From an uncultured Candidatus Poseidoniales archaeon (lineage in GTDB: Archaea > Thermoplasmatota > Poseidoniia > Poseidoniales > Thalassarchaeaceae): DNA of 46,484 bases. The DNA is taken from NCBI GenBank assembly GCA_902593945.1, contig CACJKA010000009.1, positions 1 to 46,484 on the forward strand, read 5' to 3'. A program made the translations under genes and the position numbers. The notes beneath the pieces are model-generated. The model was given only the letters and a program-made list of their open reading frames with translations. It had not been told where the DNA came from and ran no database searches. This document shows positions 31,659-46,281 of the stretch, in pieces. Within the stretch, counting starts at the first letter, position 1; each line of letters opens with the position of its first letter.

Positions 31659-32271
31659 TGGCTACATGTCGATATTAGAGCAAATTGCCTCTAAATCTCC
31701 TACCCCTGGAGGTGGTACTGTTGCAGCTCTAACGCTTGCTCATGCTCATTCATTAGCAGTAATGGTTTCAAGACTTACGATCGGAAAAGAGAAATGGCAG
31801 GAAGGCCATGAAATATCTAATTTAATCATAAATTCTAGTATTGAAACCTTGGAAAAATCTATCTCTTTGGCAGGCGATGATTCATTGGCATTTGATAAAG
31901 TAATGGAATCATATCGAATGCCTAGGGGTAATGATGTGGAAATTGAATCAAGAAAGTTAGCTATACTTGAATCTACTATTGGAGCTGCTCAGACACCTTC
32001 GGAAATAGCAGAAGAGGGACTGAAATTATTATCTTTATTACCAGATTTAGCTAGATTTGGTAATCTGAACGCGATTACCGACTTAGCTGCTTCCTCAGAA
32101 TTAGCCTATACTGCTGTTTATATTGCCACATTAAATGTTAAAATTAATGTTGACACAATGAGTAATGAAAAATTAGATAGAATTCAGGAAGATACTATAA
32201 TAATACTTACTAAATCTAAAGAATTAATTACACAAATTAGAGATATTGTTTCTGGGAGGATGAAATCATGA
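31651..32271 (+). CDS. fchA: Formimidoyltetrahydrofolate cyclodeaminase
   Basis: A 206-residue, mostly helical protein of the FTCD C-terminal (FchA) family. It converts 5-formimino-tetrahydrofolate into 5,10-methenyl-tetrahydrofolate plus ammonia. The landmark is IASKSPTPGGGTVAALTLAHAHSLAVMVSRLT near the N-terminus, followed by AGDDSLAFDKVMESYRMPRG. The start overlaps the ftcD stop by eight bases, and its own stop overlaps hutU in ATGA. Its presence beside ftcD means the one-carbon unit of histidine enters the folate pool, implying that tetrahydrofolate is used in this archaeon. Confidence 0.9.
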   Translation: MNDGYMSILEQIASKSPTPGGGTVAALTLAHAHSLAVMVSRLTIGKEKWQEGHEISNLIINSSIETLEKSISLAGDDSLAFDKVMESYRMPRGNDVEIESRKLAILESTIGAAQTPSEIAEEGLKLLSLLPDLARFGNLNAITDLAASSELAYTAVYIATLNVKINVDTMSNEKLDRIQEDTIIILTKSKELITQIRDIVSGRMKS

Positions 32272-34280
32272 CTGATTTTTCTGAAGAGTTTAAATTTGGC
32301 GTTCCACCAGAACTACCGCCAAAAAAAGAATTGGATAAGTCAGTAGATCATGCCCCTAAAAGACCTAATGTACTGAATGAAAAACAAAAGAAATTAGCAA
32401 TTGCAAACTCATTGAGATATTTTCCTGAAGAATGGCATGAGGAGTTGGCGATTGAATTTAGTAAAGAATTAAATGATTTAGGCCATATTTACATGCATCG
32501 TTTTAGGCCTGATTATGATATGTATGCACGTCCAATATCCCAATATCCTAGTAATGATATAAAAGCAGCTTGTATTATGCTCATGATTCAAAATAATCTC
32601 GATTCAGAAGTTGCCCAATACCCTCATGAATTGGTTACTTATGGTGGAAATGGGAGTGTTTTCCAGAATTGGATACAGTATAGGATAACTATGCACTATC
32701 TTTCGAAAATGAATGAAAATCAAACATTAGTGATGTATTCCGGACACCCATTAGGATTATTTCCTTCCAATAAGAATAGCCCTCGTGTAGTAATTACTAA
32801 TGGTTTGACAATACCTAATTATTCTTCTCAAAATGACTATGAAGTAATGAATGCTTTAGGTGTGTCTCAGTATGGTCAAATGACTGCTGGCTCGTATATG
32901 TACATTGGTCCGCAAGGGATTGTCCACGGAACAACATTAACAATACTTAATGCTGCAAGGAAGTATCTGAATTTTGATACAAAAGAGGGGTTAGGTGGAT
33001 TACTATATGTCACTTCAGGATTAGGGGGGATGTCAGGAGCACAGGCTAAAGCTGCAGTAATCTCTGGCGCAGTGTCCATAATTGCTGACTCTAATTCTCA
33101 TGCCGCAATAAAAAGATATGAGCAGGGTTGGTTATCTGAGTTATTCCATGATTTAGATAAATTAGTCATCAGACTAAGAGAGTGTCTAAAGAATAAAGAA
33201 GCGGTTTCTCTAGGTTATGTCGGGAATATTATTGATGTTTGGGAGAGATTAAATTATGAAAATATAATCCCGGATTTAGGTAGTGATCAGACAAGTTTAC
33301 ACAATCCCTGGTTAGGTGGTTATACACCACATGGTATGACTTATGACGAGATGAAGGAAATGATTTCTGATGACCCTGAGGAATTCAAGGTAAAAGTTAA
33401 AGAAAGTTTGATTAAACATGTTAATGTAATCAATGAATTATCTGGAAAAGGGATGTATTTTTGGGATTATGGTAATGCTTTCTTGCTCGAGGCTGGAAGG
33501 GCTGGTGCAGATATTTTTTCAGATAATACTGAATCTGGATTCAAATATCCATCTTATGTTGAAGATATTATGGGGCCAATTTGTTTTGATTATGGCTTTG
33601 GTCCATTTAGATGGGTTTGTTCTTCTGGGACTGATAATGACTTAGCCGTTACTGATGATATAGCATCTCAAGTACTAAGGTCTTTGGCCGAAAAAGCTCC
33701 CTCCGAAATTAAAGGGCAATATTACGATAATATCAGATGGATAGAAACTGCTAATCAGAACGATTTAGTTGTAGGTAGCAAAGCTAGAATATTATATGCG
33801 GATGAAAGAGGAAGAGTGAAAATTGCACAGGAATTCAATAAGGCAATCTCCGACGGCAGGATATCTTCACCTATTGTTCTAGGTAGAGATCATCATGATG
33901 TTAGTGGAACTGATAGCCCATATCGAGAAACTGCTAATATTAGGGACGGTTCGATGTTTACTGCCGATATGTCAGTTCAAAACTTCATTGGAGATTCTTT
34001 TAGAGGTGCTACTTGGGTAAGTTTACACAACGGTGGAGGTGTAGGTTGGGGGGAAGTAATCAATGGCGGATTTGGAATGGTAATTGATGGAAGCAGTGAA
34101 TCAGATACAAATATCAAATCAATGTTGTCTTGGGACGTCAATAATGGCATTGCTAGACGTGCTTGGGCGCAAAACCCTGAAGCTATCTTTGCCATTAAAA
34201 GAGCCATGGAAAATGATCCTGATCTAAAAGTCACTGTACCTAGTAAAGTATCGAAGAGTTTACTTGAAAGGATATCCTGA
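32268..34280 (+). CDS. hutU: Urocanate hydratase, long eukaryote-type form
   Basis: A 670-residue urocanase that hydrates urocanate to imidazolonepropionate with tightly bound NAD as electrophile. YSGHPLGLFPS, LYVTSGLGGMSGAQAKAA, FGPFRWVCSSGTDNDL and GRDHHDVSGTDSPYRET are family signatures; the Cys in WVCSSG is near the active site. It is about 110 residues longer than the common bacterial HutU (about 555). Its N-terminus (HAPKRPNVL, LRYFPEEWHEELA, HIYMHRFRP) resembles the eukaryotic UROC1 form, which some bacteria also have. It overlaps fchA in ATGA and is followed by hutH after eight bases. Confidence 0.94.
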   Translation: MTDFSEEFKFGVPPELPPKKELDKSVDHAPKRPNVLNEKQKKLAIANSLRYFPEEWHEELAIEFSKELNDLGHIYMHRFRPDYDMYARPISQYPSNDIKAACIMLMIQNNLDSEVAQYPHELVTYGGNGSVFQNWIQYRITMHYLSKMNENQTLVMYSGHPLGLFPSNKNSPRVVITNGLTIPNYSSQNDYEVMNALGVSQYGQMTAGSYMYIGPQGIVHGTTLTILNAARKYLNFDTKEGLGGLLYVTSGLGGMSGAQAKAAVISGAVSIIADSNSHAAIKRYEQGWLSELFHDLDKLVIRLRECLKNKEAVSLGYVGNIIDVWERLNYENIIPDLGSDQTSLHNPWLGGYTPHGMTYDEMKEMISDDPEEFKVKVKESLIKHVNVINELSGKGMYFWDYGNAFLLEAGRAGADIFSDNTESGFKYPSYVEDIMGPICFDYGFGPFRWVCSSGTDNDLAVTDDIASQVLRSLAEKAPSEIKGQYYDNIRWIETANQNDLVVGSKARILYADERGRVKIAQEFNKAISDGRISSPIVLGRDHHDVSGTDSPYRETANIRDGSMFTADMSVQNFIGDSFRGATWVSLHNGGGVGWGEVINGGFGMVIDGSSESDTNIKSMLSWDVNNGIARRAWAQNPEAIFAIKRAMENDPDLKVTVPSKVSKSLLERIS

Positions 34281-34288
34281 GGTGTAAT

Positions 34289-35824
34289 ATGAGTGGTGGC
34301 GAGATTGTACTGGATGGCAATTCATTAACCATTGAAGAAGTAATTTCAATTACCAATTATAATATCAAAGTTAAGTTATCTGAGACATCTATTTCAACAA
34401 TCAAAGAATCAAGAAATCTTGTTGATAATATAGTATCTAGTAGAGAGGTCGTATATGGCATTAATACAGGGTTCGGGGCTCTTTCTAATGTGAATATACC
34501 TGCTGATAAATTAGAAGACTTACAATCTAATCTCATTCGTTCTCATGCTTGTGGTTTAGGAGAAAAAATGGACCCTAATTCTGTTCTAATGATGATGCTT
34601 GTAAGAGCAAATTCGCTCGCCAAAGGATATTCAGGTGCTAGATTAGAATTAATTCAACTATTAATTGAAATGATAAATAATAGAATAGCTCCTGTAGTGC
34701 CTAGAATTGGTTCATTAGGTGCTTCAGGAGATCTTGCACCTCTTTCTCATATGACACTGGCGATGATGGGCGAGAGTAAATCTCAGGTACAAACTAGCGA
34801 AGGAAAATGGATTATTCATAATTCGAAGGATGCACTAGCTACCTTTGACCTTAAACCGATTAAATTGCAGGCCAAGGAAGGACTTTCATTGATTAATGGT
34901 ACAAGCCAGATGTGCTCATATTTATGTCAAAGTATCATAAATCTTGAGATGCTAATTTTTGCAGCAGATGCTGCATTATCTACCTCAATTGAGGCAATAA
35001 AAGGCTCATATGTAGCATTTGACAAGAGGATACATGATGTCAGGCCTCAACTAGGCCAGTCAATCTCTGCAAGCAGAATTAGGGGTTTCTTGAATAATTC
35101 TGATATTAATAAATCTCATATTGATTGCGATAGAGTTCAAGATTCCTATTCATTCCGTTGCGCACCTCAAGTACACGGGCCTATGATTGATGTATTACGT
35201 GAAGCTAGGAGGATTCTCAGTATAGAAATTAATTCGGCTACAGACAATCCACTTGTTTTCTCCAATAATGGGAATCCCGAAGTTATTAGTGGCGGTAATT
35301 TTCACGGCCAAATCCTCGCCATTATTAGTGACAACATGGCAATTTGCACTCATGAAATAGCAAGTATTTCCGAAAGAAGAATCAATCAGGTTCTTGACCC
35401 TCAATGGAGTGGCCAAAAAGCCTTTTTAGCTAACGATGAAGGGCTGGAAAGTGGATTAATGATAGTCCAATACGTTGCTGCAGCAGTTATAGCTGAATTA
35501 TCACTATTATCCAATCCAGTTTCAACAACTAATGTTCCAGTCAGTATGGGCAAAGAGGATCACGTTTCTATGGGAGCTACTGGAGCATATCGGACATTTA
35601 AGGCGAGTAAATTATTATCTTCAGTAATTTCTAGTGAGTTAATTTGTTCTTGTCAAGCTTTGGACAACATCCCTGAAAATGCTTCCGATTCAGTAAGAAA
35701 GATACATAATTGGCTTAGAGGTTATGTTTCAAAGATTGAGGGTGATAGAAGTACCACTGAAGATACTGAAATTATTGCTGAGAAAATATTAACATCTGAA
35801 TTTATTGATATTTTTGGAGAGTGA
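34289..35824 (+). CDS. hutH: Histidine ammonia-lyase
   Basis: A 511-residue lyase that removes ammonia from histidine to give urocanate, the first step of the pathway. The self-made MIO cofactor forms from the Ala-Ser-Gly in GSLGASGDLAPLSH (about residues 142-155). YGINTGFGALSNV, the loop around QDSYSFRCAPQVHGP and NSATDNPLVF are characteristic of the family, and the length is normal for HutH. It is the fourth of four consecutive hut genes. The next gene, alaX, follows after four bases, probably on the same transcript. Confidence 0.95.
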   Translation: MSGGEIVLDGNSLTIEEVISITNYNIKVKLSETSISTIKESRNLVDNIVSSREVVYGINTGFGALSNVNIPADKLEDLQSNLIRSHACGLGEKMDPNSVLMMMLVRANSLAKGYSGARLELIQLLIEMINNRIAPVVPRIGSLGASGDLAPLSHMTLAMMGESKSQVQTSEGKWIIHNSKDALATFDLKPIKLQAKEGLSLINGTSQMCSYLCQSIINLEMLIFAADAALSTSIEAIKGSYVAFDKRIHDVRPQLGQSISASRIRGFLNNSDINKSHIDCDRVQDSYSFRCAPQVHGPMIDVLREARRILSIEINSATDNPLVFSNNGNPEVISGGNFHGQILAIISDNMAICTHEIASISERRINQVLDPQWSGQKAFLANDEGLESGLMIVQYVAAAVIAELSLLSNPVSTTNVPVSMGKEDHVSMGATGAYRTFKASKLLSSVISSELICSCQALDNIPENASDSVRKIHNWLRGYVSKIEGDRSTTEDTEIIAEKILTSEFIDIFGE

Positions 35825-43267: not shown

Positions 43268-43288
43268 TTGGTGTTAGTTAGAAAGTTT

Positions 43289-43453
43289 ATGCCTAAAATT
43301 AGCCTAGATATCCCCTCGGAGTTATTGGGTGATTTGAAAACTCACGTTGGTGATGAAAAGAAATTTATTTCATTAGCTGATGCGGTAAGGACAGCATGTA
43401 GGAAAATGCTAGATCAATTGGATAGTATAGATGAATTCCATGGAAGGAGATGA
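43289..43453 (+). CDS. Small ribbon-helix-helix DNA-binding protein
   Basis: A 54-residue protein with the pattern PKISLDIPSELLGDLKTHV followed by FISLADAVRTACRKMLDQLD. That is one beta strand and two helices of the CopG/MetJ (ribbon-helix-helix) fold, which acts as a dimer or tetramer. It probably regulates its own promoter and the preQ0 genes behind it, given the nested inverted repeat and TATA box just upstream. There is no adjacent toxin gene, so an antitoxin role is unlikely. Its last codons contain the GGAGATGAT that seems to serve as ribosome-binding site for folE. Confidence 0.78.
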   Translation: MPKISLDIPSELLGDLKTHVGDEKKFISLADAVRTACRKMLDQLDSIDEFHGRR

Positions 43454-43457
43454 TTTT

Positions 43458-44045
43458 TTGGAAAAAATACCGGATAAAAAAGATGCTATGAGAGCAGTAG
43501 AGACATTAGTAAGATATATTGAGAAAGATTCTGGTGATTTAAGAGAGGGGCTTATTGATACCCCTAAGAGAGTTATTGACTCATTTAATGAGCTATACAA
43601 TGGTTATTCACAAAATGCAGATAGTCTGTTGGATGCTACTTTTAATGCAGAAGGTTATGACGGAATTGTTTTGCTTAAAGATATTGAATTTCATTCAACG
43701 TGCGAACACCACATGCTTCCATTCACAGGGTCTGCACATGTAGCATACATTCCAGTGGAAAAGATTGTTGGAATAAGTAAACTGGCGAGGTTGGTTGAAT
43801 TACATTCTATGAGGCTGCAGAATCAAGAACGTATTACAAAATCAATCGCAGACGATTTAGAGAGAGTTTTGAAGCCTCTTGGTTGCGGTGTAGTCATAGA
43901 AGCAAAACATGGTTGTATGCAATGCCGTGGAGTAAAAAAACAGAATTCGGTTATGTCTACAAGCTCCATGAGAGGGGTATTTTTCGATAACTCTGAAGCT
44001 AGGATGGAACTATTACAACTAATCAATAATCCGAGAAATAAATGA
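43458..44045 (+). CDS. folE: GTP cyclohydrolase I (FolE type)
   Basis: A 195-residue enzyme converting GTP to dihydroneopterin triphosphate, the entry step to preQ0. CEHHMLPFTGSAHVAYIP and the later KHGCMQCRGV contain the zinc ligands (Cys, His, Cys) of the zinc-dependent GCYH-IA class. LARLVELHSMRLQNQERIT is the conserved core. TTG 43458 lies three bases after GGAGATGAT, a near-perfect Shine-Dalgarno match, so I prefer it over ATG 43431, which overlaps the previous gene. Many euryarchaea use MptA for the pterin step; this is the bacterial-type FolE. The genes queE, queC and queD follow. Confidence 0.93.
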   Translation: MEKIPDKKDAMRAVETLVRYIEKDSGDLREGLIDTPKRVIDSFNELYNGYSQNADSLLDATFNAEGYDGIVLLKDIEFHSTCEHHMLPFTGSAHVAYIPVEKIVGISKLARLVELHSMRLQNQERITKSIADDLERVLKPLGCGVVIEAKHGCMQCRGVKKQNSVMSTSSMRGVFFDNSEARMELLQLINNPRNK

Positions 44046-44054
44046 GGGAAGGAA

Positions 44055-44684
44055 ATGGTTATTCTTAATCAAGATATTGATAATGAGCAATTATTTCCTA
44101 TTGTTGAAATATTTCACAGTGTTCAGGGGGAAGGTTACCACGCAGGAATCCCTTCAATATTTGTTAGATTTGGCGGTTGCAATCTTAGATGTGCATGGTG
44201 TGATACTGATTTCGATATTTGGACTGATATGAGCATTTCAGAAATTGTGAATGAGTTGTCAAAGTATGATTGTGATAGAATAATATTCACAGGAGGCGAA
44301 CCTGCTCTTCAAGATTTAGTAACATTATCAGGATTCTTGAAACCGCTTGGATACTATTTGAGTATAGAAACCAATGGCACTATTGCTATACCTTCTGATA
44401 CTATAGATTGGATATGTGTAAGTCCAAAAGATCAAGAATATGAGAATATAAAAATTAGACAGAGAGTGGGTGATGAATTAAAAGTCGTATATTTAGGGCA
44501 AGATTTAGCAATGTATGATGATTTAAAAGAAGGATTTGGCCACTTATTCCTCCAACCTCTTTATGATGAAGGTCAAAGTACAGAATGGAATGGAATGAAC
44601 TTTCACAGTACTTTTGAAAAGGTTCGTTCAAATCCAGAATGGCGACTTTCTCTACAAACACATAAATGGATGGGTGTAGAATAA
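44055..44684 (+). CDS. queE: 7-carboxy-7-deazaguanine synthase (radical SAM)
   Basis: A 209-residue radical-SAM enzyme that contracts CPH4 to 7-carboxy-7-deazaguanine. It has VQGEGYHAGIPSIFVRFGGCNLRCAWCDTDFD near the N-terminus, with the C-x3-C-x2-C motif for the [4Fe-4S] cluster, and FTGGEPALQ for SAM binding. The length matches QueE. It starts at ATG 44055 behind GGGAAGG. Its stop overlaps the queC start by one base (TAATG). Confidence 0.94.
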   Translation: MVILNQDIDNEQLFPIVEIFHSVQGEGYHAGIPSIFVRFGGCNLRCAWCDTDFDIWTDMSISEIVNELSKYDCDRIIFTGGEPALQDLVTLSGFLKPLGYYLSIETNGTIAIPSDTIDWICVSPKDQEYENIKIRQRVGDELKVVYLGQDLAMYDDLKEGFGHLFLQPLYDEGQSTEWNGMNFHSTFEKVRSNPEWRLSLQTHKWMGVE

Positions 44685-45826
44685 TGAGGGCAGTGATGTC
44701 ATTCAGTGGAGGAATGGATTCGACAAGTGTGTTACTTCGTTTAATTGATGAAGGTTACAAAATTGATTGTTTATCATTCAATTACGGACAAAAACACATA
44801 ATTGAAATAGAAAAGGCAAGTGAAAACATCACCTACTTGAAAGAAAAAGGATATGATATAACTCATAAAATTGTGGATCTTTCTTCTGCAATGTCAATAT
44901 TTCGTTCGTCTTTGACCGACAATGAGATGATAGTTCCAGAAGGGTATTATGAAGAAAATCAGATGAAGAGTACTGTTGTCCCTAATAGAAATGCTATATT
45001 TTCTTCAATTATTTACGGATACGCTCTATCAATAGTTGCAAGTGAGGATGTAAATGTAAAAATAGCTCTTGGTGTACATAGTGGAGATCATGCTATTTAT
45101 CCAGATTGTAGGCCCGAATTCTATCAAAGCTTAGATGATTCATTTAAACTTGGGAATTGGGATTCTGAGAGAGTTGATTTTTATTTACCCTATATTGATG
45201 GAGACAAAGTAACAATACTAAATGATGCAGTGAAATCTTGTATCAATATTGATGTAAATTTCGATATTATATTTTCCAACACAATAACGTCATACAATCC
45301 AGATTCTGAAGGTAGAAGTTCAGGGAAGAGTGGTTCAGATATAGAAAGAATATTGGCATTTCATGAATTAGGAAGAAGAGATCCTATCGAATACATAGAT
45401 TCATGGGAAAATGTGTTGCAGAATGCAATAAGAGTAGAAAAACAATTCAAAGACGAAGAATATAGAGAACGTTTGAGTGATATCCAATATGACGTGACTA
45501 GGAAAAGTGCTACAGAGCACCCATTCACAGGTATATATTGGGATGAAAAAAGAGATGGAGAATACTTCTGCATTTGTTGCGGACATAAATTATTTACATC
45601 AGAAATGAAATTTGATTCTGGATGTGGATGGCCATCCTTTTTTACAGAAGACGAAAATGCAAACATAGAGCAAGTTGAGGATAGAAGTCATGGAATGCAT
45701 AGAGTAGAATTAAGATGTTCAATATGCGATGCCCATCTAGGACATATCTTCAATGATGGGCCAGTCAGTAAAGGTGGCCAAAGATACTGTATTAATTCGG
45801 CTTCAATGGATTTTAAGGAGGAATAA
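44684..45826 (+). CDS. queC: QueC preQ0 synthase lacking zinc cysteines, fused to methionine-(R)-sulfoxide reductase MsrB
   Basis: A 380-residue two-domain protein. Residues 1-~240 are QueC: the ATP loop SFSGGMDST, FNYGQKH, VPNRNAIF and GVHSGDHAIYPDCRPEF are intact, so ATP-dependent conversion of 7-carboxy-7-deazaguanine to preQ0 is expected. The usual zinc site (CYN...CGxCxxCxxR) reads instead S203-Y-N...S213-G-K-S216-G-S-D219-I-E-R222, so all four Cys are replaced. After a charged linker, residues ~280-380 are a complete MsrB: CICCGHKLF and CSICDAHLGH (zinc Cys pairs), FDSGCGWPSFF and catalytic RYCINSASMDF. MsrB reduces methionine-R-sulfoxide. The fusion is in one uninterrupted frame. ATG 44684 is preferred over 44666. 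Confidence 0.92.
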   Translation: MRAVMSFSGGMDSTSVLLRLIDEGYKIDCLSFNYGQKHIIEIEKASENITYLKEKGYDITHKIVDLSSAMSIFRSSLTDNEMIVPEGYYEENQMKSTVVPNRNAIFSSIIYGYALSIVASEDVNVKIALGVHSGDHAIYPDCRPEFYQSLDDSFKLGNWDSERVDFYLPYIDGDKVTILNDAVKSCINIDVNFDIIFSNTITSYNPDSEGRSSGKSGSDIERILAFHELGRRDPIEYIDSWENVLQNAIRVEKQFKDEEYRERLSDIQYDVTRKSATEHPFTGIYWDEKRDGEYFCICCGHKLFTSEMKFDSGCGWPSFFTEDENANIEQVEDRSHGMHRVELRCSICDAHLGHIFNDGPVSKGGQRYCINSASMDFKEE

Positions 45827-45828
45827 TT

Positions 45829-46281
45829 GTGACAACGAGAATTAAGAGATTTGTAGAAACAGATACAGGACATAGAGTCCCTAATCATAAGAGCAAGTGT
45901 AAACATATGCACGGGCATCGGTATAGGTGGGAAGCAGTGATTGAAGGAGATGTAGTCCAAAAGAGTGGTGTATCAGAGGAAGGAATGTTGATGGATTTTT
46001 CAGATATCTCAACAATACTTGAAACATATATTCATGACATAGTTGACCATTCATTTATTGTATATGAAAACGACCTATTAGGGATAGAAGCTCTAGAGAT
46101 ATTAGGAGATGAACATAGAACATTGAAAGTTCCATTCATACCTACGGCAGAAAATCTTGCCAGATGGGCATTTGAGCAAGTAGAGCCACATATTGTATCA
46201 AAATATGGGCAAACAATTCAATTAGTAGCAATGAATGTTAGAGAAACTCCCAAATCATGGGCATCCTGGACAAAGGACTAA
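45829..46281 (+). CDS. queD: 6-carboxy-tetrahydropterin synthase
   Basis: A 150-residue QueD that converts dihydroneopterin triphosphate to CPH4 in preQ0 synthesis. GHRVPNHKSKCKHMHGHRYRWE contains the catalytic Cys and the HxH zinc ligands. VDHSFI and PTAENLARWAFEQV supply the other conserved residues. It starts at GTG 45829 behind AAGGAGGAATAATT, two bases after the queC-msrB stop. Its stop codon overlaps the stop of a convergent gene on the minus strand by four bases. It completes the set of four preQ0 enzymes. Confidence 0.93.
   Translation: MTTRIKRFVETDTGHRVPNHKSKCKHMHGHRYRWEAVIEGDVVQKSGVSEEGMLMDFSDISTILETYIHDIVDHSFIVYENDLLGIEALEILGDEHRTLKVPFIPTAENLARWAFEQVEPHIVSKYGQTIQLVAMNVRETPKSWASWTKD

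Follow-up and report, generated by a model that had tools for sequence, protein, structure and literature searches.

QueC, the 7-cyano-7-deazaguanine synthase, is considered to need zinc, whose ligands in canonical members of the family (PF06508 cluster 1; structures 2PG3 and 3BL5) are cysteines. A 2026 survey of PF06508 gives C(x)8CxxCxxC as the hallmark of canonical QueC, lists Y35, R99, Y131 and Y189 of the E. coli enzyme as essential in vivo, discusses lost zinc motifs for LarE and GMP synthase but not for QueC, and makes no mention of MsrB (PMC13329287). Relatives with other tasks or partners are on record: QatC and Cap9 are QueC-like anti-phage proteins, and Gat-QueC of archaea and phages joins QueC to an amidotransferase of the same archaeosine/deazaguanine pathway. 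MsrB (SelR; TIGR00357; 3CEZ and E. coli 6SYM) is known as a stand-alone protein or joined to MsrA (3E0M, 5FA9, 7E43), in which case both parts repair methionine sulfoxide. We found no description of a QueC-MsrB fusion, or of a QueC without zinc cysteines, in the open-access full-text papers searched, in line with an earlier note on this DNA that knew of no such bifunctional enzyme.

Poseidoniales are marine archaea. In a stretch of 46,484 nucleotides from an uncultured member of this group (the window), one gene encodes a QueC domain followed by a C-terminal MsrB domain. The QueC part shares with the canonical enzyme its fold, the SGGxDS, YxQxHxxE, VPxRN and YPDC motifs, the tyrosine of the zinc region and a preQ0 operon, but has S, x, S/T and D in place of the cysteine ligands, in a loop longer than those of the QueCs that we read from gammaproteobacteria or Thermoplasmatota. 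The MsrB part is a whole domain with the catalytic and recycling cysteines and both CxxC pairs of its family, but its partner is QueC rather than MsrA, which in Poseidoniales is a separate, unlinked gene. As in Gat-QueC, QueC is fused to a second enzyme; here, however, that enzyme is an unrelated repair protein, and Poseidoniales have ArcS. With QatC and Cap9 the window protein has in common the QueC fold and PP-loop, but it shows the reverse of QatC, in which the substrate motifs are lost and a variant of the zinc motif survives, and it has the neighbors of a preQ0 operon rather than of qat. PADLOC returned only a generic 'QueC' match.

The fused gene and its operon

The fusion that the earlier note had read is one uninterrupted ORF with neither internal stop nor frameshift (Table 1). 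An assembly error is excluded by its recurrence in many independent assemblies, among them a single-contig, 96%-complete genome of 2.06 Mb (G162 = L195), and on long contigs produced by several studies. An alternative in-frame ATG at 44666, 18 nt upstream, would give a protein of 386 aa. Against the two nearest relatives, dN/dS is 0.04-0.06 in both domains and 0.04-0.16 in the linker, with dS near saturation; the values for the domains indicate that QueC and MsrB are both under purifying selection. In one relative (L010, G033:C16), the QueC part of the fused gene contains an in-frame TAG in this assembly, which is either a sequencing error or a recent inactivation.

Table 1. Features of the queC-msrB locus (positions within the window).
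Feature	Position	Strand	Evidence and remarks
61-aa conserved ORF heading the preQ0 operon	43268..43453	+	phmmer; ribbon-helix-helix-like by eye
folE, GTP cyclohydrolase I, first preQ0 pathway step	43431..44045	+	PF01227 E 2.5e-64
queE-type radical SAM enzyme (CDG synthase)	44055..44684	+	PF04055 E 4.8e-9 and place in conserved operon
queC-msrB fusion gene	44684..45826	+	380 aa plus stop; reading frame open in many relatives
QueC domain, residues 2-229	44687..45370	+	PF06508 E 3.8e-42; motifs SGGMDS, YGQKHIIE, VPNRN, YPDC intact
Former zinc loop, residues 203-222, SYNPDSEGRSSGKSGSDIER	45290..45349	+	Alignment: S203, S213, S216, D219 in place of four zinc Cys; Tyr204 kept
Predicted bridging helix QueC-MsrB, residues 241-263	45404..45472	+	AlphaFold2 secondary structure
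MsrB domain, residues 256-378	45449..45817	+	TIGR00357 256-377 E 8.8e-51; PF01641 264-378 E 1.5e-48
queD, 6-carboxytetrahydropterin synthase homologue	45829..46281	+	PF01242 E 3.2e-27

The order folE-queE-queC-(msrB)-queD is conserved among Poseidoniales, and in the window it is headed by a 61-aa ORF that phmmer also places upstream of folE in most of the Poseidoniales loci examined. A Pfam search with this ORF gave no family match; it is a possible operon regulator. Elsewhere in the window, at 32268-35824, lies a histidine degradation cluster with adjoining urocanase and histidine ammonia-lyase-type genes.

A QueC domain without its zinc ligands

Alignment with canonical QueC puts S203, S213, S216 and D219 at the four cysteine positions, in agreement with the earlier reading. 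Because the C(x)8CxxCxxC motif is absent, we class the window protein as a zinc-less variant of the family rather than as a canonical QueC. In place of the ligands stands a polar motif, S-x-[S/T]-D, that is itself conserved; Tyr204 and the subsequent Glu-Arg of the zinc region are retained. The ATP loop and substrate-binding motifs, which the earlier note had judged intact, are so across 62 sequences: S8, G9, G10, D12 and S13 of the phosphate loop SGGMDS are invariant, and Y34/Q36/H38/E41, VPNRN (99-103), YPDC (139-142) and Y204 are invariant or nearly so. The counterparts of the four essential E. coli residues are all kept, the tyrosine of the zinc region among them, and the queD, queE and folE neighborhood typical of canonical QueC is present. 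The protein passes the Pfam cut-off for PF06508 but scores 137.8 bits against the NCBIfam QueC equivalog TIGR00364, under its cut-off of 150.3; at such scores automatic annotation may miss zinc-less queC genes.

Structure prediction had been proposed for the fusion protein. The AlphaFold2 model, built with the same number of sequences (62), has a mean pLDDT of 90.9 and a pTM of 0.82, and matches QueC structures (TM 0.76-0.79) as well as the MsrB structure 3cez (TM 0.90). In the model, the former zinc loop has block mean pLDDT values of 85-90, and the 10-residue blocks spanning the predicted bridging helix (241-250, 251-260 and 261-270) have means of 96, 90 and 91.

How widespread is the loss? 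A search for homologues and alignment of their zinc loops, also proposed earlier, found fused relatives. In the 87 distinct rows of Poseidoniales type whose loop could be read (48 of them fused, 24 tandem and 15 without msrB nearby), not a single cysteine stands at the zinc positions; the four residues read S-S-S-D, S-S-T-D, S-H-T-D, S-D-T-D and similar. All 11 readable QueCs of other Thermoplasmatota are CCCC, and their identity is mostly 33-43%. Some Pirellulaceae and a few other bacterial bins carry the same derived motif, TSYxPDxxGRSxGx[ST]G[SA]D[VI]ER, at about 52-58% identity. A sample of 118 Planctomycetota genomes held one close member, G403, which is zinc-less; the other loci read, 29 of 29, were CCCC. 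That the Poseidoniales QueC is nearer to scattered bacteria than to its own phylum suggests horizontal transfer, and we infer that Poseidoniales acquired the zinc-less QueC in this way. One Planctomycetales bacterium (HKST-UBA46, L086) has CTTD at the zinc positions; with one cysteine left, it may represent a step on the way to zinc loss. Two bins with bacterial labels, Phycisphaerae (L053) and Rhodobiaceae (L068), contain contigs with QueC and MsrB genes of Poseidoniales type, probably through binning contamination.

Viral relatives and the QueC tree

The zinc-less form extends to viruses. Among the best 80 relatives listed from an IMG/VR scan with the alignment (L235-L314), the four positions read S-D-S-S in 62 and S-x-[ST]-D in 13, four are CCCC and one is not readable, so that 75 of these 80 are without all four zinc cysteines, in two signatures. 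The S-D-S-S type reads TSYKP..SDYKSASSVER. Many of the viral zinc-less queC genes lie beside folE, queE or queD on their contigs. L240 has a row of primase/helicase, queE, folE, queC, a ParB-like gene and a TGT-like (DpdA-type) gene; L235 has a TGT-like (DpdA-type) gene immediately upstream of queC; and L244 has a phage-type DNA polymerase nearby. These gene rows resemble the DNA-deazaguanine pathway described for phages (PMC6884629). A cultured virus, Flavobacterium phage immuto (MW353176, L315:3983-4864), also encodes a zinc-less QueC of the S-D-S-S form. A contig labelled Flavobacteriaceae (L097), whose QueC groups with that of phage immuto and is likewise S-D-S-S, may be phage or prophage. 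Reading the product of a zinc-less QueC off phages that have been studied experimentally was ruled out: in the eight that we checked (CP220, phiSM, Sonali, VH7D, HVTV-1, WildeMaa, Dp-1 and BcepGomr), QueC keeps all four cysteines, and immuto was the one cultured phage with a zinc-less QueC.

In a QueC tree made with the zinc loop left out, one clade (100/100) holds the zinc-less QueCs and some with four cysteines, and is separate from gammaproteobacterial, Thermoplasmatota and characterized phage QueCs. Within this clade, Poseidoniales make up one group (98/93) and the S-D-S-S sequences form a second (100/100). Because some four-cysteine QueCs are placed inside the same clade, the number and direction of the zinc changes are not fixed by the tree, and there may have been more than one zinc loss within it. 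As far as the alignments and tree reach, the loss is old and clade-wide, common to fused and unfused relatives, and not a property of the fusion.

preQ0 and archaeosine

Archaeosine synthesis through arcTGT and ArcS requires preQ0. We detected arcTGT in 59 of 60 Poseidoniales genomes, with the PUA domain confirmed in L169, and ArcS (PF17884) in all 60. No QueF or QueF-L was found above cut-off in Poseidoniales; the weak PF14489 matches that could be located lie in or at folE, and QueF-L was set aside as a route to archaeosine. A second zinc-containing queC, which the earlier note had raised as a counter-indication, was not found either: the family genomes yielded no second full QueC, their extra PF06508 matches being weak and looking like other PP-loop enzymes. 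The window's own genome is 65% complete, and the statement on a single QueC rests on the family genomes. Since arcTGT and ArcS need preQ0 and this is the sole QueC found, the window QueC most likely functions as a zinc-independent preQ0 synthase that serves archaeosine formation. Of the two alternatives offered in the earlier note, zinc independence or help from MsrB, we thus retain the former: with the cysteines all replaced, the catalytic motifs kept, no other QueC found and preQ0-using enzymes present, QueC very likely functions with no zinc at this position.

The MsrB domain and its distribution

The C-terminal domain is the full MsrB that had been described, scoring 164 bits against PF01641 (cut-off 24.9) and 171 against TIGR00357 (cut-off 113), with two CxxC zinc pairs (CICC and CSIC), the recycling cysteine in SGCGWPSF and the catalytic cysteine in RYCIN. 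In nearly all of these genomes the queC-linked MsrB is the only one found. Ninety of the 95 family MsrB matches share the strand of the QueC domain and lie 64-153 nt past it; the remaining five are fragments, or lie where no intact queC was found on the same contig. The gene is fused in L001-L028 and many Poseidoniaceae, separate but overlapping or adjacent in others (e.g., L059 and L067 and, in the window's own genus, G046 and G049), and absent from most of genus g8 and from G105, G246, G300 and G002. Zinc-less QueC without any MsrB occurs in genera g8 and g2, in G105, G246 and G300, in Pirellulaceae and in viruses. Homologues without the fusion thus exist; they speak against an obligatory coupling of QueC and MsrB and leave the zinc loss untouched. 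Because the loss is common to fused, tandem and msrB-less forms, it is older than the fusion.

Junctions between the domains are of two types, one long with a whole MsrB N-terminus, as in the window, and one short with the N-terminus trimmed. In the MsrB tree all fused domains fall on one side of a single branch (support 90), and the QueC tree requires nine changes among the fused, tandem and absent states. A plain single origin is countered by these nine changes and the two junction types; judged from the trees, there was either one origin followed by exchange or several fusions. A local merger of adjoining operon genes is a plausible account of the event itself.

The unlinked msrA gene gives an indirect pointer to the role of MsrB. 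It is missing from all five sampled genomes that have an intact queC/preQ0 operon but no msrB (G088, G089, G091, G105 and G246), and from about 5 of 50 genomes with msrB (Fisher 7e-5, uncorrected for kinship; the five stand for some three lineages, and for some Poseidoniaceae the state of msrB was read from ORF length). These five look as if methionine sulfoxide repair had been lost as a whole. As msrB absence coincides with msrA absence, MsrB behaves as a partner of MsrA and not as a cofactor of QueC. Together with the zinc-less QueCs that lack MsrB, this tells against the earlier suggestion that the domain stabilizes QueC or supplies redox control.

Alternative explanations

Why should QueC have lost its zinc? 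We think it probable that the window protein combines a zinc-independent preQ0 synthase feeding archaeosine, acquired horizontally, with an ordinary MsrB brought in by operon merger. Compensation by MsrB, whether by stabilizing QueC or by keeping it reduced after a zinc loss that followed fusion, would fit the physical fusion, the near-invariable operon linkage and the predicted helix between the domains; given the MsrB-free zinc-less QueCs of archaea, bacteria and viruses and the tandem forms within the window's own genus, it is very unlikely. Could the chemistry have changed instead, the reaction stopping at the amide (ADG) or using another substrate as with QatC and Cap9? The hallmark motif is gone and QueC relatives have been repurposed before (PMC13329287), yet the substrate and ATP motifs are all kept, unlike in QatC, the preQ0 operon is full, and arcTGT and ArcS need preQ0 where no other QueC was found. 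Moreover, the QueC of Campylobacter phage CP220 has all four cysteines although dADG is reported in Campylobacter phages (PMC6884629), so an ADG end point does not track zinc loss. A change of chemistry is therefore unlikely.

Selection to spare zinc in a zinc-poor surface ocean would suit the marine origin given in the Poseidoniales record titles, but it sits poorly with FolE, QueD and MsrB, zinc families encoded in the same operon, with an MsrB that keeps both CxxC pairs and brings a further zinc site into the fused protein, and with the same zinc-less form in viruses and in Pirellulaceae from varied bins; we hold it to be quite unlikely. A decaying, inactive QueC whose work is done by a zinc-type enzyme elsewhere is barely credible, even with all four cysteines lost and the window's genome incomplete: no second full QueC appears in family genomes, dN/dS is about 0.04-0.06, and the derived motif is strongly conserved in archaea, bacteria and viruses. 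We also regard as improbable that zinc-free QueC arose in viruses and spread from there to Poseidoniales and Pirellulaceae, with the joining of MsrB being adaptive and coupling tRNA modification to oxidative stress; if so, a methionine-sulfoxide repair domain would have been placed on the preQ0 pathway.

With a zinc-independent QueC and an ordinary MsrB as the preferred reading, events may have run as follows. Poseidoniales would have received QueC by horizontal transfer from a viral or bacterial zinc-less clade, the incoming gene taking the place of the zinc-type QueC that other Thermoplasmatota have. The S/T/D motif, through hydrogen bonds and salt bridges, would keep the loop in position as zinc does elsewhere, and the enzyme would still turn CDG into preQ0, which arcTGT and ArcS would carry on to archaeosine in tRNA. 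The msrB gene would have joined the operon next to queC and, in some lineages, fused with it; the fused MsrB would remain the cell's methionine-R-sulfoxide reductase, partnering the unlinked MsrA rather than acting on QueC.

Implications

Zinc loss and fusion are two separate oddities, unrelated in origin. The MsrB fusion is a new domain architecture, but its functional weight is probably limited. Of the two, the zinc-less QueC clade is the more interesting: it extends far beyond the window and takes in many viruses. The zinc-less state is common to Poseidoniales, some Pirellulaceae and many viruses, and is independent of MsrB. A large clade of this kind, occurring naturally in many viruses and in marine archaea that are abundant, would mean that the metal can be replaced and would offer a direct way to learn what zinc does in the catalytic loop; Flavobacterium phage immuto is a tractable subject for testing whether zinc-less QueC is active. 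The clade also suggests that genes have passed between DNA-modifying viruses and tRNA-modifying cells.
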